Positions 31,468 through 57,007 of a stretch of 64,000 bases of DNA are shown here, in pieces. Position numbers and translations under genes: made by a program. The notes beneath the pieces were generated by a model. The model saw only the letters and a program-made list of their open reading frames with translations, was not told where the DNA came from and made no database searches. How positions within the stretch are numbered: position 1 is the stretch's first letter; each line of letters starts with the position of its first letter. Source of the stretch: a virus; IMG/VR virus record IMGVR_UViG_3300040796_000034, positions 62,001-126,000 of that record. One strand, 5' to 3'.

Positions 31468-32127
31468 TTATTCGTCAAATGAAGATATAATGGATTTTTC
31501 GTAACTGTTTATATCTTCTTCTGTTTCATTTATAAGTTTTTCTAACATTCCTCTTTCTTGAGTAAGAGTTTGTATTTCATTTCTAATATCTTCAGTAGAT
31601 TTGTTATAACTGATTTTACGTTTGTTGTATTCTTCTCCAAGAGCTTTATCTTTTTCATTGTTTGAAATAATTTCTTTACTAATGTTGTGTAGTTCTTTAA
31701 TACAATCTACAGCGGTCTTAAGTCCTTTAATATCAATCTCTTCAGCATATTCGTTTTGTTGGATGTATTGAGTTAGTAGTACGTCTATCTGAGTTATTTT
31801 ACATAAAGTTTTTCTGTCTATGTTTGTTGACTCTTTTAGTAAATCACCTAATGTTGTGTCATCTGCTAATGCTAATTTTCTTTGAACTAACTGTCGTTGT
31901 ATTCTCCATTGTTCTTTTCTTGCAGTGTAAAGAAGTTTATTATATTGTTTAGTGGTTAAATTGTATTTATTGGAAAGCTCTTTTAATGTGTAATTTCTAT
32001 GTGTGTATCCTGAATCGGAATCCTTTGAGTTAAATCCAGACAAATACTCTCTTTTTATGAGTTCTAATAGCTTTAGACTTAGTTCTGTAGGGGTTTTCTT
32101 ATCTTGCTTGTCTTTATTATTATTCAT
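31468..32127 (-). CDS. Candidate terminase small subunit
   Basis: 219 residues. An HTH-like segment YTLKELSNKYNLTTKQYNKLL (46-66) leads into ARKEQWRIQRQLVQRKL (69-85). The 'HTH then Glu/Gln-Trp-x-x-Arg' order is typical of small terminases, which recognise the packaging site. The rest is coiled coil (about 100-210), which suits ring assembly. It is the only leftward gene in the right two thirds of the window and lies about 13 kb from terL. A different HTH regulator is possible. Confidence 0.55.
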   Translation of the reverse strand: MNNNKDKQDKKTPTELSLKLLELIKREYLSGFNSKDSDSGYTHRNYTLKELSNKYNLTTKQYNKLLYTARKEQWRIQRQLVQRKLALADDTTLGDLLKESTNIDRKTLCKITQIDVLLTQYIQQNEYAEEIDIKGLKTAVDCIKELHNISKEIISNNEKDKALGEEYNKRKISYNKSTEDIRNEIQTLTQERGMLEKLINETEEDINSYEKSIISSFDE

Positions 32128-32160
32128 TATGATTTGATTTTTTACGATTTTTTCTGATGG

Positions 32161-32505
32161 AATTGATTCGGTATTTTTGTAAGTTGAGTGAGGTTAGGTA
32201 AGGTTTAATGATGGATAGTTTGTTATTAGTGAATATGTTAGCATATTTGGAGAAAAGATATGTGTGTATGTGAATGTATGTAGATGTGGGAAGAATATGG
32301 TAGAAATGGTTATTGGATTTATGCCAACACCCACCCCCACACAATCCCTATCCTTTTTCACATAATCCTATCAACATCACACCCAAACCATATCCCACAC
32401 ATTCCATCAAACATTACCAATAACTAACATTTTATCTATTTCACCTACTATTAATAAATATCAATATCTACATTTCACATATTATTAAATAAAATATCAC
32501 ATTAT
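32161..32505. other. Mirror-symmetric GC-skew switch (C-depleted then G-depleted)
   Basis: Counting by eye on the plus strand, 32161-32323 has about 48 G and 2 C, and 32324-32505 has 56 C and no G at all. The switch falls at ATGCCAACACCCACCCCC. Read outward in both directions, each strand is A/C/T only, so both divergent leaders would be nearly unable to form G-containing pairs. No convincing gene lies inside. Confidence 0.8.
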
Positions 32506-32516
32506 GGGCCTTTCCT

Positions 32517-32619
32517 ACGAGCGATGGCCCGGCAAACGAGCGATGACCCGGCCGACGAGCGATGGCCTGGCGATGGCGTACATTAGGCGATGGCCCGGCA
32601 AACGAGCGATGGCGGGGCC
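32517..32619. repeat. 19-bp iteron-like repeats, ACGAGCGATGGCCCGGCAA type
   Basis: Copies begin at 32517, 32536 and 32555 with a strict 19-bp period, followed by a partial copy (GGCGATGGCCCGGCAA near 32586) and another at 32602. All share GCGATG(G/A)CC. Tandem repeats of this length beside a skew switch and AT-rich DNA resemble plasmid or phage iterons bound by an initiator. No initiator gene is recognisable nearby. Confidence 0.7.
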
Positions 32620-32711
32620 TTCAAAATTATTTTTAAAAATGTATCGTAGAATACAGAAATAAGAATTGAATAGATTTATGGTTAAATAGTTCAATTAAGT
32701 TAGGTTCAAAA

Positions 32712-32972
32712 ATGAATACAACAGTTAAAGAAGTTATAACGCCGAACGAGTTAATCTCATTAGCTATGGGACAATTTGAGAAAGATTACCCCAACTCATT
32801 AATTGACGTAGTGAGTGTTAATCATAAACTTAGTTGGAATGAACGTCACCCCCGAGTGGCTGTGTGTTCACTAATTTTAATCGAGTTAACTTGCAAGCGT
32901 TTTTTAGTTTACAAGTTTGCTGCAAAATACTCTGAGGCGTATCTATTCGAGCGCTATTTTGAAATAGACTAA
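32712..32972 (+). CDS. Hypothetical small protein next to the iteron region
   Basis: 86 residues, not recognised: a helical N-terminus (TPNELISLAMGQFEKDYP), then strands with LSWNERHPRVAVCSLILIEL. No HTH visible. First gene rightward of the skew switch and iterons, so a link to that locus should be considered, but nothing in the sequence shows binding. Confidence 0.45.
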   Translation: MNTTVKEVITPNELISLAMGQFEKDYPNSLIDVVSVNHKLSWNERHPRVAVCSLILIELTCKRFLVYKFAAKYSEAYLFERYFEID

Positions 32973-33345
32973 ACCCGTCGCCGCTAAACTTTTTTAGGCT
33001 CTATTAATTTAGGGCCTTTTTAAGAGCCATCCGGTATAACAATTATTACTCTTTCCGGTATAACCGCTCTAGTGGATTTTAAGCTAGGATAAGACTGCTT
33101 TAGGGTATTCCTACCATTAGAGCATTTAACAGCTATTAACGAGCTGAATAGTCGCCGCTATTTGATTAATTAGATTATTGCCGGCCCCCCGTTATCTTTA
33201 TTATTTTCACTCCTATTAATAGAAGATAATCCGGCCCACCTATTCCTACTACATTAAAGGCCCACCCTTACCCGCTATGGCCAAGGCCCAACTTATTCCA
33301 GTAACAGAATACGGTGGCCCAAAGATGGCCAGAAAATGTCCAAAA

Positions 33346-33393
33346 TGATTTTTTAATCAACATTTTACCCCTAATTTGATTTTTTAGTCAACA
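33346..33393. repeat. 17-bp direct repeats TGATTTTTTAATCAACA
   Basis: Copies at 33346-33362 and 33377-33393, 16 of 17 bases identical, 31 bp apart (about three helical turns). Each is itself near-palindromic (TGATT..AATCA in copy 1). Suggests paired operator sites upstream of the promoter at 33453. Confidence 0.55.
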
Positions 33394-33452
33394 GTGAAAC
33401 CTATATGCAGCAACGGTTACAAGACTTTTTTAAAAAAACTTTCTAAAAAGGG

Positions 33453-33481
33453 TTGACAACTAAAGAATTACTAGCTACTAT
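33453..33481 (+). promoter_or_regulatory. Sigma70-like promoter
   Basis: TTGACA at 33453-33458 and TACTAT at 33476-33481 with the optimal 17-base spacer. Lies 137 bases before the gene at 33618. Confidence 0.6.
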
Positions 33482-33533
33482 GAAGTTGGTTAAGAGAAAG
33501 ACAAAAAAAACAAACCGCCGATAACTCTTGCTG

Positions 33534-33549
33534 AGTGACACAAATCACA
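33534..33549. promoter_or_regulatory. CRP-like palindrome (AGTGACACAAATCACA)
   Basis: GTGA (33535-33538), six bases, TCAC (33545-33548). Matches the core of the cAMP-receptor-protein consensus TGTGA-N6-TCACA. It lies 53 bases downstream of the promoter and 68 before the start codon, a position more suited to repression or to a second promoter. Confidence 0.5.
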
Positions 33550-33617
33550 AGGCCAGGGATAAGGTCCAAAGTTTAACTTTCTCTTAATGATGTACCTTAA
33601 CAATTGAATAAAAAATA

Positions 33618-34268
33618 ATGTCGAACTACAAGTTTAACTGGTCCGCAATAAGTATGGGTGAGGACGTGAACGACTCTAAGCACTGTGCTTTATACTGGTA
33701 TTGTAAAGAATACCATCAGGGACAAAGTGACTGGCGCTATGAGGTATTGAGTAAATCACCTTATACACCCGGGCCGTGTCAGAGTGACATCTTAGACTCA
33801 GAAGACTTCGCAGCTATCCAGTATTATCAGCATTTACTGAGGTTATTTGAACCCAATATTTGCGATATAGACTTAGTGAGCTATGAAGTCGGGTCAAAAG
33901 GGATTATCGACTTTTGGTCCCATACCCATAGCATAACCATTTCTGTTAATGGTGACTGGTTTAGTGCTACCGATTTGGCGCGTGACGTGTACGAGCAAGT
34001 ACAGCGCTGCGATTGGGGCTACCAAGTGGACCTGGCTGATATTTTTTCCTGTCTCGGCTCTTTTCACTATCCCTTAAGTGTAGAAGTCGATAACGATACC
34101 GATGAGGAAGAAACAGAATTATTATGGCTAGGGTTCGACTGGTATAACGAACCGGAGGAACCTGTGGATACCTGTAATGGGTGTATCTACTTCACTGGGG
34201 AATCAGCCCTACGTTGCGCGGTGAATCCACTGTCAACGGAGCGCTGTATCGAATATCAAACAGCCTAA
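33618..34268 (+). CDS. Hypothetical protein with C-terminal Cys cluster (DUF6464-like)
   Basis: 216 residues. The C-terminal 35 residues (CNGCIYFTGESALRCAVNPL, then C about 12 later) resemble the Cys pattern of a cyanobacterial family, DUF6464-like 'CxGCxYf...LrCAvnP...C'. Probably binds a metal. The N-terminal 180 residues are unknown and Trp/Tyr-rich. Codon use is visibly more G+C-rich than in genes left of 32 kb, suggesting separate origin. Confidence 0.55.
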   Translation: MSNYKFNWSAISMGEDVNDSKHCALYWYCKEYHQGQSDWRYEVLSKSPYTPGPCQSDILDSEDFAAIQYYQHLLRLFEPNICDIDLVSYEVGSKGIIDFWSHTHSITISVNGDWFSATDLARDVYEQVQRCDWGYQVDLADIFSCLGSFHYPLSVEVDNDTDEEETELLWLGFDWYNEPEEPVDTCNGCIYFTGESALRCAVNPLSTERCIEYQTA

Positions 34269-34286
34269 TAACCTATCAATTATGCC

Positions 34287-34305
34287 TGGGGGGTTAATCC
34301 CCCCA
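34287..34305 (+). terminator. G6/C6 hairpin
   Basis: TGGGGGG (34287-34293) pairs with CCCCCCA (34299-34305) around a 5-base loop, 18 bases after the preceding stop. No T run, so a factor-dependent or weak terminator. Confidence 0.5.
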
Positions 34306-34313
34306 AGCCTTAC

Positions 34314-34355
34314 TATTGTATTCTAAGCTTATAAAGCTATTCATAGAATACAATA
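34314..34355 (+). promoter_or_regulatory. Inverted repeat TATTGTATTCTA / TAGAATACAATA
   Basis: A perfect 12-bp stem (34314-34325 with 34344-34355) enclosing AGCTTATAAAGCT, itself palindromic. It uses the same GTATTCT/AGAATAC core as the nested hairpins at 34.7, 37.6, 48.4 and 48.9 kb, and precedes the gene at 34395. Confidence 0.6.
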
Positions 34356-34394
34356 CAAGGCAAAAATTATCAAGGATTATCGAGGTTAGAAAAA

Positions 34395-34667
34395 ATGAAA
34401 ATTAATGTAGATTGGGTTGAACACATTGGAAACCTAGATACATACACCCGATGGTTTCAAAATCTGTATGAAAATATAGATTCTGAAATCGAAGATTATA
34501 TCTCCCTTAGAAAGGGAGAAATTTTAGGAGATGTTGTAGAAAAACAATTAAGCTACAGTTATCAACAAAATCTTGAGATATCTTGGTTTGGTGATTACGA
34601 CATTGGTGTAGAGTTGCACCGCGCATCCGGAGATGAAACTTGGTTCATCAAGTTTACTATCGATTAG
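34395..34667 (+). CDS. Hypothetical protein
   Basis: 90 residues, acidic, not recognised. Contains ISWFGDYDIGVELHRASGDE and ends in TAG that is itself the first bases of the nested hairpin element that follows. Confidence 0.5.
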   Translation: MKINVDWVEHIGNLDTYTRWFQNLYENIDSEIEDYISLRKGEILGDVVEKQLSYSYQQNLEISWFGDYDIGVELHRASGDETWFIKFTID

Positions 34668-34728
34668 AATCTAGCACTAGGGATATAGTGCGATTATATC
34701 CCTGGCTGCTGTATTCTTTAGGATACAG
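34666..34728 (+). promoter_or_regulatory. Nested hairpin element, copy 1
   Basis: Arm AGAATCTAGCA (34666-34676, overlapping the upstream TAG stop) can pair with TGCTGTATTCT (34707-34717). Inside is AGGGATATA / TATATCCCT (34679-34687, 34695-34703) with loop GTGCGAT. The 3' arm can instead pair with ATACAG at 34723-34728, so two mutually exclusive folds exist. Sits 35 bases before the next start. Confidence 0.7.
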
Positions 34729-34762
34729 TGTAAAACTTAGAAAATTTTCGAGGATAGAAAGA

Positions 34763-35452
34763 ATGGACCCTATCGTAGGAATTAACGTAAGCAGCCACCC
34801 ATACATAACGCAAGCTTTAGAATGCTGCAAGTTTGATATCGCAGCCCCTCTATGGGCACGATTAGCAACGCTTCGTCGTATGAAATTACATTGTAATGCG
34901 TACCGGATTAAAGTGGACATTAACCACATGGTCTGGAAGAAAGGCCAAGGCCCTTTAAAAACCTACTCCGTAGGGGAGTCTTACCCAGTTAACTTACAGT
35001 GCTTTCTGGGAGAACACAAAACTTTTTACATACCTGGGAGTTACTCCCAGGTAACAGGGAGTCACCGACTAATTAAAGTACCTCTGAGTGAGGTAGATGC
35101 TTTTTTGGTTGACAAAAAAAGCATAATCGTCTACCCGAAAATGGACGCGGCGTTCTTCTACCGTTCCCACGAACAGTATCCCCAGTATTTGGGGACTAAT
35201 CCATACAAATACAAAGAAATGCCTCAAAACGGTATTTCTTTCTTTTTCAAACCTCAATCATCATCTGTTGTAGGTGAGGCAGTCTCTCAGAATAAAGGTA
35301 CACGGTTAGAGTGCTTCTACCCCCATACAAATATTTTAAAGGGAGTAGAGATGGATTTTGGGAAATATTTCCCGGATTACCCGGAGTTATCTGTTGAATG
35401 GGCTTTGCAAAAAGAAGTTATTAGCAAAAAACTTCTTAAAGCCTATTCATAG
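34763..35452 (+). CDS. Hypothetical protein
   Basis: 229 residues from the ATG at 34763 with GAGGA upstream; a start at 34640 would read through the hairpin element and is rejected. Not recognised. Beta-rich C-terminal two thirds with aromatic clusters (EHKTFYIPGSYSQVTGSHRL, AAFFYRSHEQYPQYLG). Hydrophilic, probably cytoplasmic. Confidence 0.52.
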   Translation: MDPIVGINVSSHPYITQALECCKFDIAAPLWARLATLRRMKLHCNAYRIKVDINHMVWKKGQGPLKTYSVGESYPVNLQCFLGEHKTFYIPGSYSQVTGSHRLIKVPLSEVDAFLVDKKSIIVYPKMDAAFFYRSHEQYPQYLGTNPYKYKEMPQNGISFFFKPQSSSVVGEAVSQNKGTRLECFYPHTNILKGVEMDFGKYFPDYPELSVEWALQKEVISKKLLKAYS

Positions 35453-35482
35453 AAGCTTTTATTTCACCCCTTGACACAAGCT

Positions 35483-35523
35483 AGAATCTAGCACTAGGGA
35501 TATAGCGGCCTTCCCTATATCCC
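35483..35523 (+). promoter_or_regulatory. Partial nested hairpin element
   Basis: AGAATCTAGCA (35483-35493) and the inner hairpin AGGGATATAG / CTATATCCC (35496-35505, 35515-35523) are present, but the TGCTGTATTCT arm is replaced by GCGCCGC. It begins close to copy 1 in sequence and looks like a decayed duplicate. Confidence 0.55.
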
Positions 35524-35543
35524 GCGCCGCTAAAGTCTTATTT

Positions 35544-35574
35544 AACCCACCCTAACCCGGTGGGTTTTTTTTTT
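35544..35574 (+). terminator. Rho-independent terminator
   Basis: AACCCACC / GGTGGGTT stem with loop CTAACCC and a run of ten T. The same stem-loop recurs at 37876, so it belongs to a repeated intergenic module. Confidence 0.8.
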
Positions 35575-35640
35575 GCTCGAAAAATGCAGCGATCGCCCCG
35601 AGTTTTTAGCGCCGCAGTCCCACGGGTTGTCACTTGTCCG

Positions 35641-35714
35641 GGCCATCACTTGTAATTGTTTGTCCGGGCCTTCATACGGGTTGTCTTGTCCATAGTGTTT
35701 GTCATAGTGTTTGT
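35641..35714. repeat. Dispersed repeat GGCCATCACTTGTAATTG plus tandem 12-mers
   Basis: 35641-35686 aligns with 38012-38059 (shared CTTGTAATTGTTTGTC, then ACCTTYATACGG, then TTGTCT). It is followed by CATAGTGTTTGT twice in tandem (35691-35714); a third copy lies at 40414-40425. Confidence 0.65.
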
Positions 35715-35894
35715 CATCCTTTCACTAACATTCATTCTCCGGCCCCTAGAAAGCTCGTAAAGGTGCATTAAGCTTGTCTCTGGTATATTCTACCCTTTAT
35801 TATTTCACAAACCTTAAAAGCCCGTATATGCAGGGTGATTTGTGTTTTAAATGTGAAAGGAGCAAATTGGACACAAGCTAAAAAACTTTTAATT

Positions 35895-35910
35895 TGTGAT
35901 TCAAATCACA
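35895..35910. promoter_or_regulatory. Perfect CRP-type palindrome TGTGATTCAAATCACA
   Basis: Exact TGTGA-N6-TCACA (35895-35910), the consensus of CRP and of cyanobacterial SyCRP1. It lies 57 bases before the start codon at 35968, just upstream of AACTAGCTAAAGTAG, which contains a possible -10 (TAAAGT). Suggests cAMP-linked or phage-encoded control. Confidence 0.6.
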
Positions 35911-35967
35911 GACAAAGGATTTTTAACTAGCTAAAGTAGAAACATAGAAACAACAAAGAGGATTATC

Positions 35968-36708
35968 ATGGCAATTTTGAAACTAGAGTACGTTAAACGT
36001 TCTACTTTTTCTTGGGAACGTGATTTGGTAGAGCTACCAGCAAACACCCCCCAGGGTATCTACTACTCAAAGGATGAGCTAGGGGACATTCTTTATAATT
36101 TCTTAGGTGAGGAGGAATTTACCGATGAAGATGAGGATGGTTTCCCGGCGATACCTTACAAGTTAAGCTTTGATGGGGTGAAGGTAAGTGAATCATCTGT
36201 AATAATGGCTGTCCGCGATATGTTTCCTGGGACGACGCTAATTGATATTACTGAGGACGACGTAGCTTACATCCGTATGGAGTGTTACCCCAACACTTTT
36301 AAGGAGTGGGTAAACCTTCAATTTGCTGAGAGCTTTACTCTCGAATATATTAAGACGGCACTCCCTGACATATCTGAGTGGGCGCAGTCCAACTGCCCGC
36401 GGTCTGCTAAACTTTTTGACATCTATTCAGAAGAAATTCAAATTCTGGCACTTGTAGAATCTGCGGACTTTGAGACCCGGTTCGAGGGGTGTCTAACGGG
36501 TTTTAAGACGGACCTACTCGATATTGCGTTAACTGAAATTGTGATGATTATCGTCAACGAATTAGAAGAAGCCGACGACGATGACTTCAACGAATGGTGT
36601 GATAGTGAGGATGAGGACGACGATGAGGACTATAGCGACGGGTATTTCAATGATGACCTCGTTGCATTGAAATATGAGGTACTAGACCCAGATAACGATT
36701 TATTCTAA
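35968..36708 (+). CDS. Acidic hypothetical protein
   Basis: 246 residues, not recognised. The C-terminal 40 residues are mostly Asp and Glu (EEADDDDFNEWCDSEDEDDD); the N-terminal part is mixed alpha/beta. Strong GAGG before ATG. A DNA-mimic-like acidic tail is notable, but such tails are common and no inhibitor family is recognised. Confidence 0.52.
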   Translation: MAILKLEYVKRSTFSWERDLVELPANTPQGIYYSKDELGDILYNFLGEEEFTDEDEDGFPAIPYKLSFDGVKVSESSVIMAVRDMFPGTTLIDITEDDVAYIRMECYPNTFKEWVNLQFAESFTLEYIKTALPDISEWAQSNCPRSAKLFDIYSEEIQILALVESADFETRFEGCLTGFKTDLLDIALTEIVMIIVNELEEADDDDFNEWCDSEDEDDDEDYSDGYFNDDLVALKYEVLDPDNDLF

Positions 36709-36716
36709 TACCAGAA

Positions 36717-36740
36717 ACACTCCCGGCCTTCCGGGGGTGT
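36717..36740 (+). terminator. Hairpin ACACTCCCGG / CCGGGGGTGT
   Basis: 10-bp stem (one G-T pair) with loop CCTT, directly after the stop at 36708 and before the next start. A variant (ACATCCTCAG ... CTGGGGGGTGT) follows the next gene near 37102-37126, so this is also a repeated intergenic unit. Confidence 0.55.
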
Positions 36741-36767
36741 ACAATCCAAAATTACCAAGGTAAAAAA

Positions 36768-37091
36768 ATGAAATACATACCAGACTCCCTACCTACACCC
36801 TCCTTACAAGAGGATATAGACCGGACAGAGAAGGCAATAGCCTTTTATGTAACCGACTACCTAGAGGCGACACCACATTGTCCATGTACTTTAGGGGAAA
36901 TTATCCAAGATATAAAAGGGTTAGCTGAATTGCCCGCTAATTTAAGAAATAGGGAGGTTAGTTCTTTTAGCTTACGGTTAACAGACAATGATGAAGATAC
37001 GAATCGTTTATTTACTTTACTGGTGGCGTACTTAAAAGATTTACAAAACTTAGAAAAAGAGCAAATCAAAGACCAAACCTCACGACTTTAA
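36768..37091 (+). CDS. Hypothetical protein
   Basis: 107 residues, not recognised. Helical, with CPCTLGEIIQDIKGLAELPA near residue 38 and a long C-terminal helix. AAGG ribosome site 8 bases upstream. Confidence 0.48.
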   Translation: MKYIPDSLPTPSLQEDIDRTEKAIAFYVTDYLEATPHCPCTLGEIIQDIKGLAELPANLRNREVSSFSLRLTDNDEDTNRLFTLLVAYLKDLQNLEKEQIKDQTSRL

Positions 37092-37198
37092 AAAACCCGA
37101 AACATCCTCAGCCTTCTGGGGGGTGTACAGCCCAAAAAAATAGCTCTGGGGCTGCTGATGAAGGTAGGAGCTATGCTTAGAAAATTAGGAGATACAAG

Positions 37199-37597
37199 AT
37201 GGCTAGTAAGATGCCACAGTTTGATTTGGACCAAGTGAAATCTGTATTAACAGAGGAAGAGTACAAGCTCTTCCAACTCACCCTTAACAAAGACCGACTC
37301 CGGGCCACCAAGCCCACAGAGAAAAAATGTGGGGACAAATTGGGGGAAGCGTATTACGTCTGGCGTATGACCGCATTTTATTTAGCGGGGTTTCATCCCC
37401 ACAACAGTATGCCAGTCTGCGCAGATTTGCTGATTGATTCTTTCTATCTGTACGAGTACGAGGAAGACCCAGAGAAAGTAAAAATCAAACGAGCGCAGTA
37501 TGATGCTCGTATTGCCGAACTAGATGAGATAGTTGATAAAGTGGTAACAAGTCAAAAAGGCATCATCAGGTGGGGGCGAGCATTAGGTTATTTCTAG
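37199..37597 (+). CDS. Hypothetical protein
   Basis: 132 residues, not recognised. Helical and charged (LDQVKSVLTEEEYKLFQLTL, then a Trp/Tyr-rich centre). GGAG site before ATG. Ends TAG five bases before the next nested hairpin. Confidence 0.5.
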   Translation: MASKMPQFDLDQVKSVLTEEEYKLFQLTLNKDRLRATKPTEKKCGDKLGEAYYVWRMTAFYLAGFHPHNSMPVCADLLIDSFYLYEYEEDPEKVKIKRAQYDARIAELDEIVDKVVTSQKGIIRWGRALGYF

Positions 37598-37602
37598 CCC
37601 CT

Positions 37603-37655
37603 AAAATCTAGCAAGATGGGGAGTAGTGCGATTCCTCCCCTCTCTGCTGTATTCT
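37603..37655 (+). promoter_or_regulatory. Nested hairpin element, copy 2
   Basis: AAAATCTAGCA (37603-37613) pairs with TGCTGTATTCT (37645-37655). Inner stem GGGGAG / CTCCCC (37618-37623, 37635-37640). The inner loop again contains AGTGCGATT as in copy 1, while the inner stem differs in sequence but keeps pairing. Lies 22 bases before the next start. Confidence 0.65.
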
Positions 37656-37677
37656 GTTTAACTTTGTAAGGATTTGT

Positions 37678-37797
37678 ATGAGAACTTTCTCAGAAACGTA
37701 TTGGACAGTAAACGACTTGTATCTGGACAATCTCTCGATTGCCTCGAAGCGGTGGAAAACAACCGACACCGTTATCGGCGGTGTGAAATACCGCTAG
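37678..37797 (+). CDS. Very short ORF with good ribosome site
   Basis: 39 residues, MRTFSETYWTVNDLYLDNLS..., ATG five bases after AAGGA. A competing frame from TTG at 37674 to 37862 gives 62 residues but has almost no space for the ribosome site. I prefer the ATG frame with low confidence; one of the two is probably used. Confidence 0.35.
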   Translation: MRTFSETYWTVNDLYLDNLSIASKRWKTTDTVIGGVKYR

Positions 37798-37875
37798 AAC
37801 AGGTTTGCAAAACCCAGGAATGGGGCGAAGAGCTTATTAAAAAACTAACAACCCTTTCATAATTTCAATTTCCAG

Positions 37876-37899
37876 CCCACCCTAACCCGGTGGGTTTTC
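37876..37899 (+). terminator. Rho-independent terminator, same stem as at 35544
   Basis: CCCACC / GGTGGG with loop CTAACCC and TTTTCTCTT tail. The stem-loop core is identical to the one at 35546-35564. Confidence 0.75.
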
Positions 37900-37942
37900 T
37901 CTTGTCTCAATTTCCCGGATCGCAAACCCTTTTATTAGCGGC

Positions 37943-38059
37943 GGCCATCGCCAGTCTGGCCATCGCCAGTCTGGCCATCGCTACAGTCTGGTCATCGCTT
38001 GTCTAAGCCCCGCCACCGCTTGTAATTGTTTGTCTGCTGGACCTTTATACGGATTGTCT
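37943..38059. repeat. Tandem GGCCATCGCCAGTCT repeats and dispersed repeat
   Basis: 15-bp units at 37943 and 37958, a 17-bp variant at 37973 and GGTCATCGCTTGTCT at 37990. GGCCATCGC is the reverse complement of the GCGATGGCC core of the iterons at 32.5 kb. Continues into the 48-bp sequence (38012-38059) shared with 35641-35686. Confidence 0.7.
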
Positions 38060-38060
38060 C

Positions 38061-38098
38061 AGTGATTAGCATCATATAACCTAGTGATTTGTATCACC
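38061..38098. promoter_or_regulatory. Two CRP-like palindromes 22 bp apart
   Basis: GTGA-N6-TCAT at 38062-38075 and GTGA-N6-TCAC at 38084-38097 (AGTGATTTGTATCACC). Two-turn spacing puts both on one DNA face. Located 62 bases before the UUG start at 38159. Confidence 0.55.
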
Positions 38099-38158
38099 CC
38101 TTAACGATTGTCAATTGAATATTATAGTAATTGTCAAGAGAATTAAAGGAGTTTTAAA

Positions 38159-38488
38159 TTGAATGAATTAGAAATTGCCAGGCAAGCCGCTATAGGCGCA
38201 TCCTGGTATCAGAATGAACGAGACCGGAAAAGTTACACTAAGAATTGTAGTCGAGCCTACTTGTCTGCATTCTACAAATCTAGGGGCTACAAGTACACCC
38301 CTAGTAAAGAAGTTGAGTACAACTTTATAGGCAATTTGTTTTTAGTTGTACGGGAGCCAATAGTATTATATCGCGATAGGGGTCATGTACTCCTTTGGAG
38401 CGATAAAATCGTCTATCTTACTTCTAAAATAGGAGAAAGGATAGATGAGGGTGACTACCTCTTAAAGTATTACTGGGAGGGGTTCTAG
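38159..38488 (+). CDS. Hypothetical protein, UUG start
   Basis: 109 residues. Start TTG at 38159, seven bases after AAAGGAG; no in-frame ATG early on. Basic, Tyr/Arg-rich (NERDRKSYTKNCSRAYLSAF). Not recognised. Possibly cotranscribed with the amidoligase gene 48 bases downstream. Confidence 0.5.
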   Translation: MNELEIARQAAIGASWYQNERDRKSYTKNCSRAYLSAFYKSRGYKYTPSKEVEYNFIGNLFLVVREPIVLYRDRGHVLLWSDKIVYLTSKIGERIDEGDYLLKYYWEGF

Positions 38489-38536
38489 TAGTAAATAGTT
38501 GAATAAAAGTTAGATAACGTAAAGGAGTTAGATACA

Positions 38537-40204
38537 GTGGGAAAATTTGTAGAGGACAATGAGTCCACAGACTTATTTCAGTACAGCGTGGACGTAGTGA
38601 AACACGCCACTGGAGAATACAGAAGAGAGTTAGAAATATGGGAGGATACCTGTGAGGGGTATCGATGCGGGGGGTATAATGCCTACCGCGACTACAACCC
38701 CTGGCGGACGGTGATAGGGTTGGAGTTGGAGATGGAAGGGACATCCTTCTGTATCGAAAACTACTCATCACTGTTAAATTACGGAATCTTTTCAGAGGAT
38801 TCCACGGTAGATGCTGAATTTAAAGGGCTACCGTTTCGGCTCTCAGATTGGCTACGAATAGCGGCTGAGAATCGTTTTAATTTTGACAAATTTTTGCGGT
38901 ATAACAGTGAGGACAATGGCGCGGGTCTTCATATCCACATATCACAGAGGTGTCTGTCGGAGGAGGCAGCCGAGTATATTAGAGGGTTTCTCTGTAATTG
39001 CGGAGAAAGTGTTTTGGAGACAGTTGCAGGGAGAGAACTCCCTAACAACTATGTAACGCCATACACTACCCTTGATAGTGGGAAATATGGATATACAACC
39101 CGACATAAAAGTGGAGTGACCTGGGAGATTCGTATTTTCCAATCGCCGAATGATTGGCAAGGATTAATACGATGTCTTGTATGGGTAGCGATGCTCGTAC
39201 AAAAAGCAGAGAGTACCAGTGATAGACCGGGTAAGTATGGTCCGCTATCATACAATGGTATTCCACAAGAAACTTGGAAAGAAGTTTTCCAGGAGATGTT
39301 AGATAAGTTTGAGGGTATATATCCACAGATTGTTAGTAATCTTGAAAAATTACCCTTAAGGCAGGAGGATATCTGCCTAGAGTATCTATATGATGAAGAC
39401 GATGAGGAGGGGTACGGGGAACCATTATATTACGACCCCGTAACAGATGACGAGTTTGAAAGTTACGAAACTTATGTAGAAGTCATCTATGGGAGGATAA
39501 TTGACGACCCCTTTAGCTATATGGAGGATGGTTACAATTCAATCAAAGACTTGTATGAGGTTGGCGATTACAATCTTTTCTACGAATCATGCTTTCCGAG
39601 TCTTTGGGTTAGCGATATCTATGAGGTGATTCGCTACGACGATGACCGTATCATAGAGATGCTCCATGAGGACTTATGGGAGTATATCCATAAAATCCCT
39701 TGGAAAAGACTTCTAGTACCGACGGCGGATAACCTGTTTCGGGTAAATCGCAATAACCCGTTAGGACGTTTAACTCACGCTATACAAGAGTATGGCTTTA
39801 ATGAGGATGCCATTGTTGAGGAGTTTGTAGAGAATTTCTTAAGTCTGGATTTCCCTGAGTGGTATAGAGATAAATGTAATGAATACCATCGATACAACTA
39901 CTACTCCAATGACTATAGCTTACAGAAACACCCTACAGAGGAGGTGTTATATGAATACCTTCGAGAGGAGATTCGTAAGTTAGTCCGAGAGACAATACAA
40001 GCTAACTGGGTAACAAGAGCTAACTGGGTGTGGATAAATGAGTATGATAGTAACACCCTTATACGCCGATACTCAAATCCTGTACTAGAAGTACAACTAT
40101 TCTCGGAGTATTGCGATTTGTACCCCATGTTGCCGTTAGGATTTGAAATGGAGTATAAAGTCGCTAATGCAGTAGGTATCCCCTCCTGCTGGATAGTGAA
40201 ATAA
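38537..40204 (+). CDS. Glutamine-synthetase-like amidoligase family protein
   Basis: 555 residues from GTG at 38537 (AAAGGAG upstream). Signature of the Amidoligase_2 group: GLELEME at 61-67, EDSTVDAEFKGLPF at 87-100, GAGLHIHIS at 128-136, and TWEIRIFQSP at 195-204. The Glu and His residues align with the metal/ATP site of the GS fold. Such enzymes join carboxylates to amines, and in phages may modify proteins or make peptide-like small molecules. The C-terminal 300 residues are acidic and unfamiliar. No partner ATP-grasp or GCN5 gene is visible nearby. Confidence 0.7.
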   Translation: MGKFVEDNESTDLFQYSVDVVKHATGEYRRELEIWEDTCEGYRCGGYNAYRDYNPWRTVIGLELEMEGTSFCIENYSSLLNYGIFSEDSTVDAEFKGLPFRLSDWLRIAAENRFNFDKFLRYNSEDNGAGLHIHISQRCLSEEAAEYIRGFLCNCGESVLETVAGRELPNNYVTPYTTLDSGKYGYTTRHKSGVTWEIRIFQSPNDWQGLIRCLVWVAMLVQKAESTSDRPGKYGPLSYNGIPQETWKEVFQEMLDKFEGIYPQIVSNLEKLPLRQEDICLEYLYDEDDEEGYGEPLYYDPVTDDEFESYETYVEVIYGRIIDDPFSYMEDGYNSIKDLYEVGDYNLFYESCFPSLWVSDIYEVIRYDDDRIIEMLHEDLWEYIHKIPWKRLLVPTADNLFRVNRNNPLGRLTHAIQEYGFNEDAIVEEFVENFLSLDFPEWYRDKCNEYHRYNYYSNDYSLQKHPTEEVLYEYLREEIRKLVRETIQANWVTRANWVWINEYDSNTLIRRYSNPVLEVQLFSEYCDLYPMLPLGFEMEYKVANAVGIPSCWIVK

Positions 40205-40255
40205 GGAAAGAGAATTAGAAGAGCTTCCATAAAGGAGCGGCTATTAAATTTGTAC

Positions 40256-40281
40256 AACCCGGCGATAAGTCGGGTTTTTTT
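40256..40281 (+). terminator. Rho-independent terminator after the amidoligase gene
   Basis: AACCCG / CGGGTT stem (40256-40261, 40271-40276) with loop GCGATAAGT and a seven-T tail. Confidence 0.75.
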
Positions 40282-40819
40282 ATGCTAAGGATCGCAAGAA
40301 AAAATAAGCGCCGCTAGCACTTGTCAATCTATACCCGCCAACTGTCTTTGGCCCATAGAATTACTTGGCCCTTTACCTTCACTGTCCCCAAATCTGATAG
40401 CGCGGTTCTGGCTCATAGTGTTTGTCCATCATAAGCGCAATAGAGGAAATAGGGTATCATAAGCTGCTAAATAAGACTGTATTGTATGACACTTTTTCTA
40501 ATATTTATTTCACAACTTTTTAATAAGAAGAAAAGGATACCATACTTCGGTTAATTTGTCAAGCATTTATTAAAATTAATTTTTTTTAAAAAAATTTTTA
40601 TAAGCTGAAACTCTTGTACAGTAAAGGTTACAAGCATTGGACATCGGCTATTTCACTAAATGAGGGGTCAGACCCCCTATGCAAATTCCTTAAAAGATGT
40701 CATTATAGAAATGTGGAAGGAAAAAGAGCTTGAAACCTAACGGTGGTAAGACTTTCACCTAACACGAGTTACTACCAAGGGCCAGAAAAAAAAACTTAAA
40801 AACTTTTTTTGAAAAACCC

Positions 40820-40848
40820 TTGACAAACTAGCTAAACAAAGCTAAAGT
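40820..40848 (+). promoter_or_regulatory. Sigma70-like promoter
   Basis: TTGACA at 40820-40825 and TAAAGT at 40843-40848 with a 17-base spacer that contains ACTAGCTAAA, also present near 35930. About 280 bases before the gene at 41125. Confidence 0.5.
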
Positions 40849-41124
40849 AGTAATAACGAGTTAAATAGTTAACTCCTTACAATTTAGAATTTAACCGGGA
40901 CGACCGCTAGAGGCTCTCGTTTGTTAAATGTCAATTTTTTCTTTACTGGAATGAGGTTTAGCTAAATCTCTACCGAGTAATCTAAATGATTGTAATCATC
41001 ATTTACTGATTGCCGAATAGAGCTTTAGTCATACAACAGACAAAGTTCGTTGATAGGGTTCAAATCCCTATCCTGGTATTACCTTTTAGGTAAAATGTAA
41101 AATCCATAATGGAGTTTAAACCCA

Positions 41125-41517
41125 ATGAAAATATTCAACGGAACCCAACATCAGATAACCTTTTATAAGGTACAGGATACAACTCCTGTCGAGGGAGGTC
41201 GTAAGCTCATACTAAACGAAAAAGGAGCCGAGCCTTACTATGTAATCGCACCGGGTACAAATCTCAACTGTATAAAGTGCAACGCTGATGCACCTAATCT
41301 CGAAAGTCCTGTCCCCCTAGTGGGGGCGGTGCAATTCAAAGATGCAGATATCCTTCCCGAGGGGTATGACCTGTACATAGTCTCAAATCTGTACCGCGCC
41401 GCGTGTGTAGAGTTAGGACGCAATACCGACAAACTCGCTACGGTATCAGGAACCGTGTATAAAGGGGTTCCTGGAGAATTTAAACCTTGCGGAGTTATCG
41501 AGCTTGCTGTAGGTTAA
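41125..41517 (+). CDS. Conserved-type hypothetical protein ('N-x-T-x-H' start)
   Basis: 130 residues. The N-terminus MKIFNGTQHQITFYKV, the middle PLVGAVQFKDADILPEG and LYIVSNLYRAACVELGRNTD match a widespread unnamed phage/bacterial family with 'NlTpH..' at the start, 'G.v..LP' in the middle and 'yIVS......R.D' near the end. No function is established that I can name. Ribosome site GGAG precedes ATG. Confidence 0.5.
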   Translation: MKIFNGTQHQITFYKVQDTTPVEGGRKLILNEKGAEPYYVIAPGTNLNCIKCNADAPNLESPVPLVGAVQFKDADILPEGYDLYIVSNLYRAACVELGRNTDKLATVSGTVYKGVPGEFKPCGVIELAVG

Positions 41518-41855
41518 TAATCCTGTCCTGTTTGGCAGAGTTCGTTAAACTGCCATCTTTCAATCACCAAGGTTTACCCGGTCCCTTACCTAAATACCGG
41601 GAGTAAATCTATTAACAAGATATCATGTTTAAGTGTCCAATGATTTATCAAAGACTTTACCGAGATGGGTGTACACCCCCTATAATTGTACATCCGTTAA
41701 ATACAATGCCTGATAGTAGTGAAATCATCTGAGATGAAAAAAAAACTACTCCTAATCTATCTGCTCTATTACTTACTGCTGGATTGTATTCTGTAAAGTC
41801 CCAATTCAGCAAGAGTTAATAGTCAATCAAGAAGAGTTAATCGGAGACTACAACG
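41518..41855. other. 338-base intergenic region with strong secondary structure
   Basis: No gene seen. Hairpins include TGGCAG/CTGCCA (about 41532-41553), GGTTTAC-CCGGT / ACCGG-GTAAATC (about 41572-41610) and the perfect 12-bp palindrome GGGTGTACACCC (41667-41678). A GTATTCT core like that of the nested hairpins appears near 41788. Confidence 0.5.
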
Positions 41856-42086
41856 ATGGGTTTATATCAATTAGGTTTGCAAGATTCGATGTTAGAGAAA
41901 CCTCGTACACGAGAGTCGTTAAAAATAGTAATAGGCTCGGAAATTCCAATAACATCTTACTATCAGGAATATTTACGGGGGTTCCATTTCCAAAAGCCCG
42001 TAATATGTCCCTTTTGTAAAGCCGTACAAGGCATTTCAGGGGTTGACAAGATACCCTTTGAATGTCCAGAGTGTGAAGCTACCTAA
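41856..42086 (+). CDS. Small zinc-ribbon protein
   Basis: 76 residues. C-terminal CPFCKAVQGIS, then PFECPECEAT gives a C-x2-C ... C-x2-C zinc ribbon. The N-terminal 50 residues are unknown. Likely a small nucleic-acid or protein-binding adaptor; no specific role can be named. Confidence 0.55.
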   Translation: MGLYQLGLQDSMLEKPRTRESLKIVIGSEIPITSYYQEYLRGFHFQKPVICPFCKAVQGISGVDKIPFECPECEAT

Positions 42087-49024: not shown

Positions 49025-49471
49025 ATGTTAACCGTAGTCAAAAATCAAAATATTTTAGACTTCCCAGGTGATGTGATTGTCAACACTGTCAATTGCCAAG
49101 GAATTATGGGTAAAGGACTTGCTAAACAAGTCCGGGAAAGATATCCAAACGGCGTTCTTAATTATTTAAAAAACGCATCCACCATGATGAAACCAGGTGA
49201 TGTAATTGTTGATACCGTTTGTGACATTTTCATATTTCACTTAGCAACCAAAAATACTTGGCGAGCTAACTCAAAAATAGAATGGATTCGGGCAGGTTTA
49301 CAAAACCTAATCGCTAAAGGTAACGAATATAATATTAAATCCATAGCTTTACCTTTAATAGGTTGTGGTTGTGGGAAGTTAAATCCTTTAGATGTTTATC
49401 GAGAGATTCAAGACTGCGGTATTGCTAACTATTTTGAAGTACATCTATACATTAAATCAGAAATAAACTAA
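49025..49471 (+). CDS. Macro domain protein (DarG/TARG1 or Poa1-like)
   Basis: 148 residues, a single macro domain. VNTVNCQGIMGKGLAKQV at 19-36 is the ADP-ribose-binding N-terminal loop; FHLATKNTWRANS at 71-83 carries the candidate Lys76 used by DarG/TARG1-type enzymes; ALPLIGCGCGKL at 108-119 is the phosphate-binding loop. Members remove ADP-ribose from DNA or protein, or act on ADP-ribose 1''-phosphate. In a phage it could reverse host ADP-ribosylating defence (DarT-like) or process KptA by-products. No DarT gene is adjacent. Confidence 0.78.
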   Translation: MLTVVKNQNILDFPGDVIVNTVNCQGIMGKGLAKQVRERYPNGVLNYLKNASTMMKPGDVIVDTVCDIFIFHLATKNTWRANSKIEWIRAGLQNLIAKGNEYNIKSIALPLIGCGCGKLNPLDVYREIQDCGIANYFEVHLYIKSEIN

Positions 49472-49826
49472 GAGTGGAGATTAGAATGATAAAGTACCAG
49501 AATCGAGTGAAACAAACATTTCAAGAAATTGAAGAATTACTTTTTCTTGAAAAAGATTTAACGAAATTTAAGAGGTTACAACTTATCTACCTATTAAAAA
49601 GTGGAGAAGTAGAAAACCCTAGTCAAGCTGTTCGTTTTTTAGGAGTTCACAAAACAACTCTCTGCCGTTGGTGGGAAAAATACGAACAGGGTGGTTTAGA
49701 CAGACTCTTAAACCGTTCAGTTAAGAATGTGAAAGGGCCAAGTAATTACGTCATCCCGATTCATATTATTTCTAAAATCGAGACAAAGAAAGGCTTTTTT
49801 AAATCTTATCGAGAGATTCAAGACTG
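49396..49826 (+). repeat. 21-bp exact direct repeat in two adjacent genes
   Basis: TTATCGAGAGATTCAAGACTG-type sequence at 49396-49416 (macro gene) and 49806-49826 (HTH gene), 410 bp apart, encoding Tyr-Arg-Glu-Ile-Gln-Asp in both frames. The genes are otherwise unrelated, so the match suggests recombination. Confidence 0.75.
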
Positions 49827-49911
49827 GTTACGAGAAGAATATCAACTAGATGTCTCATACACGACTGTTCATAAGCAGTTTTCTAAAAAGCAGTTTTCTA
49901 AAACACAATAG
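49486..49911 (+). CDS. IS630-type transposase N-terminal (HTH) fragment
   Basis: 141 residues from the ATG at 49486 (GGAG upstream). SGEVENPSQAVRFLGVHKTT through CRWWEKYEQGGLDRLL (39-75) and SYREIQDWLREEYQLDVSY through TTVHK (about 108-131) match the two HTH/winged-helix parts of IS630-type transposases. The DDE catalytic half is missing; the end is a tandem duplication (KKQFSKKQFSK, 15-bp units at 49873 and 49888). Either a decayed insertion sequence or a captured DNA-binding protein. No terminal inverted repeats seen. Confidence 0.65.
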   Translation: MIKYQNRVKQTFQEIEELLFLEKDLTKFKRLQLIYLLKSGEVENPSQAVRFLGVHKTTLCRWWEKYEQGGLDRLLNRSVKNVKGPSNYVIPIHIISKIETKKGFFKSYREIQDWLREEYQLDVSYTTVHKQFSKKQFSKTQ

Positions 49912-55625: not shown

Positions 55626-56150
55626 TTGTACAACCCAATCTACAAAAAGAATGATTTGATACTCGGTAGTGGTAAATCTGCTATCATTACCGGGTGGACA
55701 GATAAAAGACAAATCGCTAAACATTTGGATAGTTCAGAATACGCTGTCGTAGGTAATCTTTTCGACCCTGATATAGGGTTAGATTATTTAATAGCCAATG
55801 TATTAGCAAACCCCCAAGTTAACTCTCTTAAGCTGTATTGTGACCCTAAGAATCAACTGAGTATTGAGTCTCTTACACCTCTTTGGAAATTGACCTATCG
55901 AGGTTATATTGAAAAGCTAGATTACTATGCTATTCAAGATAGTTGTCGTGGTAGAGTTTCCAAAAAGTTTACTGTAGAAGACCTAGAAATTTTTAGACAG
56001 ATATCTAGTCAGTGGGTCTGTTCGGTGAATACCTTAAAAGAAAGTCTTTGTTTTAATGTATTTAATACGAGACAAGCTAGGGTTATAAAACTTACTACTA
56101 CAGTGAAAGAAATACTACCACCCGGTAAACTGTACAACCATTGTTTGTAA
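55626..56150 (+). CDS. Orphan MtrA/DUF4346-like domain protein, UUG start
   Basis: 174 residues from TTG at 55626 (AGAGG upstream). AIITGWTDKRQIAKHLDSSEYAVVGNLFDPDIGLDYLIANVLANP (19-63) matches the MtrA-like region 'W....ia..L....yAviGnLys..GI..lvrNlLANP' that in many cyanobacteria and phages accompanies thymidylate synthase or stands as DUF4346. The remainder is unfamiliar and no thymidylate synthase is in the window. May bind a corrinoid or folate-like cofactor; role unproven. Confidence 0.6.
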   Translation: MYNPIYKKNDLILGSGKSAIITGWTDKRQIAKHLDSSEYAVVGNLFDPDIGLDYLIANVLANPQVNSLKLYCDPKNQLSIESLTPLWKLTYRGYIEKLDYYAIQDSCRGRVSKKFTVEDLEIFRQISSQWVCSVNTLKESLCFNVFNTRQARVIKLTTTVKEILPPGKLYNHCL

Positions 56151-56152
56151 AA

Positions 56153-57007
56153 ATGTTAAATCAAAATGAGTTGTTTACTAAATGGGTAAATTCTTTACAG
56201 TATATTACCTCAAACGGATATCTTGATAAGAAAAGAGGTTTTTTAGAATGTAACAACTTAAATATTCAAATATCATCTAAAGACTTTAACACTATATCGT
56301 TACTAGATTATTCAGATGTTGAAGTAGTTCCTACAAAAGAAGCTTGTTTAGAGTATTCATCTAAACTTATTTTTGGTACTTCTGTAGAGGGAGTAGAGTA
56401 CACCTACGGCTCTCGATTAACTGAACACTTTAATAGTAATCAAATTTATCAGATTATTGATAAATTAATGATATATCCTGACATGACATCTCATTACATA
56501 ACTCTTTGGGATGTAAATAAAGACAGTGGAAGTTTAAACCCACCTTGTCTTACGTCTATTTGGTTTCGATGTAGAGAAGAAGTCTTAGATATGTTCTGTA
56601 CATTTAGGTCACATGATATGTACAGAGCTTGGTTACTGAATACAGTAGGCTTAATAAGTTTACATAGTTATATTGCTAAAAAAGCTAATAAGTCTTTGGG
56701 GTTATTAAATGTAAATTCCTTATCAGCCCATATCTATGAAGATTGTCTGCTGCAAGCTAGGTCAGTAGTAGATAAGTATTTCTATTCACTGAACAAACAG
56801 AAAAAGTTTAGTGACCCCATAGGACAGTTTGTAATTGAAAAAGATGGTAAGGAAGTCGTGGCTTCTCTCTACCGTGAGAAGGCTCTAATAGCCTCTTACA
56901 GGTCTGTTAACCCGCAAAAGGTAGTAGATGACATTATTACCTTTCACAGTGGCTTACAGCCCTCTCATGTAGCGTATATCGTTAAGGAAGTGTTGAGCTA
57001 TGAATAG
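56153..57007 (+). CDS. Hypothetical protein
   Basis: 284 residues from the ATG at 56153, two bases after the MtrA-like stop. Not recognised. Mixed alpha/beta, several Cys but no cluster. Because it follows the MtrA-like gene so closely it is a candidate functional partner. Confidence 0.52.
   Translation: MLNQNELFTKWVNSLQYITSNGYLDKKRGFLECNNLNIQISSKDFNTISLLDYSDVEVVPTKEACLEYSSKLIFGTSVEGVEYTYGSRLTEHFNSNQIYQIIDKLMIYPDMTSHYITLWDVNKDSGSLNPPCLTSIWFRCREEVLDMFCTFRSHDMYRAWLLNTVGLISLHSYIAKKANKSLGLLNVNSLSAHIYEDCLLQARSVVDKYFYSLNKQKKFSDPIGQFVIEKDGKEVVASLYREKALIASYRSVNPQKVVDDIITFHSGLQPSHVAYIVKEVLSYE

Follow-up and report, generated by a model that had tools for sequence, protein, structure and literature searches.

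The window analyzed here, a 64,000-nucleotide stretch, comprises bases 62001–126000 of virus record IMGVR_UViG_3300040796_000034. The record (126,850 bases) carries no end repeats, and an open frame of 118 codons spans its joined ends; it is therefore probably a circle that was cut at an arbitrary point. Within a 584-bp non-coding gap between divergent genes lies a 345-bp element in which a G-rich arm and a C-rich arm meet at 32324. The features of this region are as follows.

31468–32127, minus strand: orphan gene of 219 aa, helical, with a long coiled-coil C-terminal half in a low-confidence model.
32161–32323, no strand: left arm, C-poor on the plus strand, G-poor when read outward (leftward), aperiodic; MFE of the outward RNA −2.2 kcal/mol.
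32232–32247, no strand: short palindrome AATATG-TTAG-CATATT, which contains one of the only two C in the left arm.
32324–32505, no strand: right arm, G-free on the plus strand; MFE of the outward RNA 0.0 kcal/mol.
32354–32362, plus strand: single weak DnaA-box-like sequence TTTTTCACA in the right arm.
32418–32497, no strand: candidate DNA-unwinding stretch in the right arm, nearest-neighbor energy −1.013 kcal/mol per bp.
32467–32495, plus strand: weak sigma-70-like site TCTACA-17-TAAAAT (9/12) at the outer edge of the right arm.
32517–32571, plus strand: 19-bp GC-rich tandem array of ACGAGCGATGGCCCGGCAA, candidate iterons, 2.9 copies, TRF score 82.
32587–32619, plus strand: additional, out-of-phase copy of the 19-bp repeat, 91% identity, family D1.
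32712–32972, plus strand: orphan gene of 86 aa, the first gene of the rightward block.
33453–33481, plus strand: better promoter-like site TTGACA-17-TACTAT, 1.1 kb from the switch and downstream of two TGATTTTTTARTCAACA copies.

The leftward gene, upstream of which the earlier note had placed the element, starts 34 bp from the left arm; the rightward gene starts further away, 207 bp from the right arm. Approximately 34 kb of rightward genes, the longest block of genes in one direction, begin at the element. Values for GC3 rise across it from 0.21 on the left to 0.44 on the right, and the element therefore also borders a module that differs in origin. The higher-GC module itself (32700–42000) has long intergenic gaps and orphan genes and is likely foreign. 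Tail-like genes resemble those of cyanophages of Planktothrix and Nodularia at 26–31% identity; by inference from these matches, the host is probably a cyanobacterium.

The phage encodes a DnaB-type helicase, a DNA polymerase A and a primase-like gene. The last of these (L002:16683–17515) we take to be primase-like by eye, from a CPIC zinc motif followed by a toprim-like segment; it lies just before the DnaB-type helicase gene and is seemingly split by a frameshift, either a sequencing error or real. A thymidylate-synthase-like protein (56141–57007) is nearest to phage thymidylate synthases and deoxyuridylate hydroxymethylases, and L004:7064–9076 encodes a 670-aa protein of PHROG 1735, shared with ViI-like phages; with both present, thymine modification is possible. 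The protein at 49025–49471 has what we take, by eye, to be a macro-domain-like sequence. Adjacent to it, 49474–49911 encodes the lone helix-turn-helix part of a transposase-like protein, which has no near copy among plasmids or GTDB genomes.

One assembled record contains the element; a single near-identical contig was found, IMGVR_UViG_3300040801_002654, and it spans other parts of the genome. Searches of viral contigs for relatives of the terminase and of the 219-aa, 604-aa and 906-aa proteins returned none, the DNA of the region matched nothing in 50,697 phage records, and the exact core and repeat patterns were absent from other viral contigs. For comparison, 48 other virus records were taken, two of them cyanophages and the rest sharing one conserved protein. 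The mirror pattern, for which the earlier note had suggested a search in related phages, occurred in 0 of these 48. We know of no phage element of similar appearance.

Base composition was recounted for both arms, giving A49 C2 G48 T64 for 32161–32323 and A71 C56 G0 T55 for 32324–32505, in agreement to the base with the G and C counts reported before. The G+C content of the arms is ∼30%, matching the genome, while on the outward strand C is doubled and G is removed. Because G+C is unchanged, this is polarization rather than loss of GC, the outward strand having gained C in addition to losing G. In the right arm, C density peaks beside the switch (20 of 40 bases) and declines outward. The G-free run of 182 bases is the longest in the record, the runner-up being 77, and C-free runs of 81 and 72 bases rank first and third.

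To score mirror symmetry, we took G minus C over the 160 bases to the left of a site, minus the same quantity over the 160 bases to its right. The score is 100 at the switch and 45 at the next best site in the window, and the switch is present in a single copy within the record. For a null model, a fifth-order Markov chain was trained on the rest of the window and used for 60 simulations of 64 kb each. Simulated maximum scores had a mean of 43.9 (sd 3.6) and never exceeded 51, and simulated runs free of G or of C reached at most 78 bases. The statement that chance cannot explain the switch is thus borne out. The 345-base stretch is highly non-random, and neither chance, coding nor simple repeats account for it. 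A run of 182 bases lacking G at normal complexity should, taking this single assembly as it stands, reflect a strong strand-specific constraint.

Several candidate explanations were rejected. A missed coding sequence had been named as one that would undercut the pattern; no start codon exists on the G-free strand inside the right arm, and the sole weak open frame (32120–32344, minus strand, TTG start) has no clear codon pattern. The arms do not form an inverted repeat or hairpin, having no mutual match (z of +0.98 against shuffled arms). A tandem-repeat origin was rejected since neither TRF nor autocorrelation detected one, the best autocorrelation being 0.43 per arm and not above shuffles (p 0.09 and 0.17). 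No known RNA family matched near its gathering score. The claim that both strands are unstructured when read outward held, with the MFE values listed above; their lack of structure is dictated by the restricted alphabet. The suggestion of an R-loop or primer site did not hold. Hybrid-minus-duplex energies for the four strands (+0.049, +0.054, +0.008 and −0.036 kcal/mol per bp) are ordinary, all within ∼1.3 sd of the genome background (0.033, sd 0.053 kcal/mol per bp), and no RNA:DNA hybrid is unusually stable.

Our favored reading, held tentatively, is that the element forms the core of the replication-initiation region of the phage, with iterons and a melting zone. Among 80-bp stretches of the 126.85-kb record, only one is less stable than 32418–32497 (0.015% of windows are weaker), and it is found where a gene beside the primase region has its 3′ end. 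The tandem array starts 20 bp from this stretch. The earlier note had placed the element beside iterons, which is accurate for the right arm, adjoined by repeats at 32517–32619; there are none on the left side. The presence of one copy per genome fits a site acting at the level of the replicon rather than a generic leader or terminator. Also in favor are the unfolded outward strands, the lack of CTG and GTC, the phage's own replication genes (DnaB-type helicase, polymerase A and the primase-like gene) and a position where the longest run of genes in one direction begins.

If this reading is correct, the 19-bp repeats at 32517–32619 would be the binding site of an initiator, the weak 80 bp at 32418–32497 would open, and helicase loading would follow. 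The benefit of the strict composition would fall to the single strands, since an arm strand made up of A/C/T or A/G/T only should hardly fold, and a helicase or single-strand-binding protein would thus find no hairpin in the arms. CTG and GTC are missing from both strands over the 345 bp, and priming by primases that use trinucleotides of this kind would presumably start only outside the element. Such an origin would be an example of one whose strands are built to stay unfolded.

A number of observations weigh against this reading. An origin had been predicted to show a genome-wide skew inflection here; cumulative GC skew instead has its minimum at ∼23.7 kb of the window (84–86 kb of the record), which coincides with a switch in the direction of the genes. 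The skew-based reading, for origin or terminus, fails its own test because the turning point is at that position and not at the switch. The local polarity, G-rich and then C-rich, is the opposite of origin-type skew and is terminus-like. The proposal of an origin is thus disfavored by skew and favored by anatomy, through the 19-bp repeats and the easily melted stretch. Because the weak stretch and the repeats are both on the right side, they account neither for the left arm nor for the mirror symmetry at 32324. The absence of CTG and GTC is an automatic consequence of composition. When both arms are folded together as one strand, they can pair with each other (MFE −61.4, no better than shuffles). 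As for an initiator, the neighboring genes are orphans and the one DnaA-like box is no more than expected by chance; the window holds 11 such boxes versus 7.4 expected, a weak difference. The repeat motif also occurs at 37943–37998, where there is no skew switch.

Note that GC-rich repeats built around GCGATGGCC and GGCCATCGC are strongly enriched between genes, at 32517–32619, 35638–35674 and 37943–37998, the core GCGATGGCC thus recurring in intergenic DNA at 35.6 and 37.9 kb. They are one base off the cyanobacterial HIP1 core, GCGATCGC.

The origin reading nevertheless ranks first among those considered, at a minority probability; the order of the readings was set by adjacency and thermodynamics and not by tests of function.

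It is possible, if doubtful, that the arms instead encode two divergent unstructured G-free 5′ leaders, or are long spacers upstream of divergent promoters. Without a Shine-Dalgarno sequence, leaders of this kind might still keep ribosome entry open, serving the 219-aa gene on one side and the rightward block on the other. The gap is divergent, as leaders would require, and the near-zero folding energies of the outward RNAs agree with them. G-free RNA permits no ATG, GTG or TTG start and no Shine-Dalgarno sequence, and such a leader would therefore be translation-silent. The divergent leaders proposed in the earlier note are upheld as to structureless outward RNAs, but the switch has no promoter-like pair. 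By sigma-70 consensus, no outward-facing pair was found there; the only site inside the element (32467–32495) points right from the outer edge, and the number of promoter-like sites in the region is not above that in shuffles. A better promoter for the early block lies 1.1 kb downstream, the phage has no such leader at any other gene, and strict absence of G over 160–180 nt exceeds what ribosome entry needs. From its sequence, the site at 33453–33481 is likely the start of the early block. The two TGATTTTTTARTCAACA copies before it (33346–33393) are 31 bp apart and operator-like, and together with TTGACA-17-TACTAT they possibly constitute the main early promoter.

A rather unlikely alternative is a bidirectional, Rho-less transcription insulator or terminator defined by composition, in which polymerase arriving from either side copies a C-free G-rich arm and then a G-free arm, the phage version being aperiodic. 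Evidence bearing on it comes from the cyanobacterial phylum, in which 386 genomes were searched for 50 bases without C followed by 80 without G (the 50/80 pattern). Among genomes of at least 2.8 Mb, 45 had the G-to-C polarity and 5 the reverse, as counted from the table; both polarities occur in small AT-rich genomes. At the strict 75/125 setting, the numbers were 13 and 0. The G-to-C polarity is therefore recurrent in the probable host phylum. Thirty-nine switch loci were fetched and ten checked for periodicity; all ten arrays had a short unit, most often 7, with autocorrelation of 0.58–0.97. Loci L125–L163 and L248–L259 are short, mostly heptamer arrays, G-rich and then C-rich, that tend to follow gene ends. 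Only 3 of 33 switches lay in divergent gaps, compared with 31 of 118 gaps in the background (p 0.04), and convergent gaps showed a slight, non-significant enrichment (p 0.06), in statistics based on few sites per genome and genes called by a simple ORF rule, with no phylogenetic correction. The polarity rule for these arrays is seemingly new, a description of it not having been found in the literature; searches on G-free phage leaders and on the polarity of cyanobacterial repeats likewise gave nothing direct.

These same-polarity switches behind genes, and their rarity in divergent gaps, count in favor of an insulator. So does a report that cyanobacteria have no Rho and that in Synechococcus elongatus most transcript ends are unexplained (PMC13289151). 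The phage gap, however, is divergent, so that no gene ends at the element; its arms show no period, in contrast to the short repeats, mostly heptamers, of the cyanobacterial switches; and an excess of hairpins is inconsistent among cyanobacterial switches and absent in the phage. Mapping of 3′ ends in one species, published in 2026, also showed no strong nucleotide preference where ends were diffuse, with only modest guanine enrichment upstream (PMC13289151). A broader version, which we consider improbable, is that G-to-C switches form a class of symmetric cis elements, defined by composition and invariably of one polarity, through which cyanobacteria without Rho insulate or terminate transcription in both directions with no hairpin; phages of these hosts would carry an aperiodic form. 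If true, the polarity rule would be the first sequence signature of an unknown termination pathway in the phylum. Should the polarity reflect termination, it would give a testable signal for a group in which transcript ends are mostly unexplained.

A junction of packaged genome ends at 32324 (pac/cos, or the edge of a terminal repeat) is quite improbable. A cut there would leave C-rich 5′ and G-rich 3′ ends on both sides, the early block of ∼34 kb begins at the element, and, given the frame across the joined ends and a circle cut elsewhere, true ends could be internal; but the terminase large subunit is 14 kb distant and the record has no terminal repeat. We know of no packaging site with such arms.

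Very improbable is a pair of Rho-utilization sites, even though Rho prefers RNA of the kind that both arms would give outward, rich in C, free of G and unstructured (C 28–31% and G 0–1% over 163 and 182 nt). Elsewhere, Rho recognizes stretches of C over G longer than 150 nt, and in B. subtilis long stretches where C greatly outnumbers G mark the Rho-terminated fragments (PMC13323073). In a host with Rho, the element would therefore make two strong Rho sites. The tail genes, however, match cyanophages, and cyanobacteria are reported to lack Rho (PMC13289151); moreover, the phage genes do not show the Rho-linked bias, with a third-position purine content of 0.48. In a GTDB sample of the phylum, a Rho domain was present in 12 of 59 genomes and absent from 47, and none of the 12 had a G-to-C excess by the 50/80 pattern, in what is a small sample confounded by ancestry.

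Least probable is a neutral relic, such as a decayed short-repeat array acquired from a cyanobacterial chromosome with the foreign module: the position at the edge of the higher-GC3 module and the polarity of host-type arrays would suit it, but neither arm retains a residual period and neutral decay would have restored G and C, yet the 182 bases of the right arm include no G.

Among known systems, iteron-type theta origins (lambda ori and the origins of plasmids RK2 and P1) share with the phage element a single copy and direct repeats, here of 19 bp, adjoining a weak AT-rich stretch. The phage element differs in having no skew inflection and no identified initiator, and in its left arm, for which such origins do not account; to our knowledge, known origins have no 345-bp G-free/C-free mirror arms. 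GC-skew switches at origins and termini likewise show an abrupt change in the sign of G minus C. Theirs is a weak bias on the kilobase scale, while that of the phage is local (345 bp), near absolute, terminus-like in polarity and away from the genome-wide turning point. The rut sites of Rho are also long, C-rich, G-poor and unstructured as RNA, a likeness that the phage element has in both outward directions, but its probable host group is reported to lack Rho and transcription through the element is putative. Finally, the STRR heptamer arrays of cyanobacteria are, like the phage element, G-rich then C-rich, intergenic and of similar size (arms up to 150–200 bp). STRR arms have a period, 7 in most cases, occur many times per genome and tend to follow gene ends, whereas the phage element is aperiodic, single and situated between divergent genes. 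Due to these differences in periodicity and context, it is not classed with the cyanobacterial switches, and polarity alone is what the two have in common.
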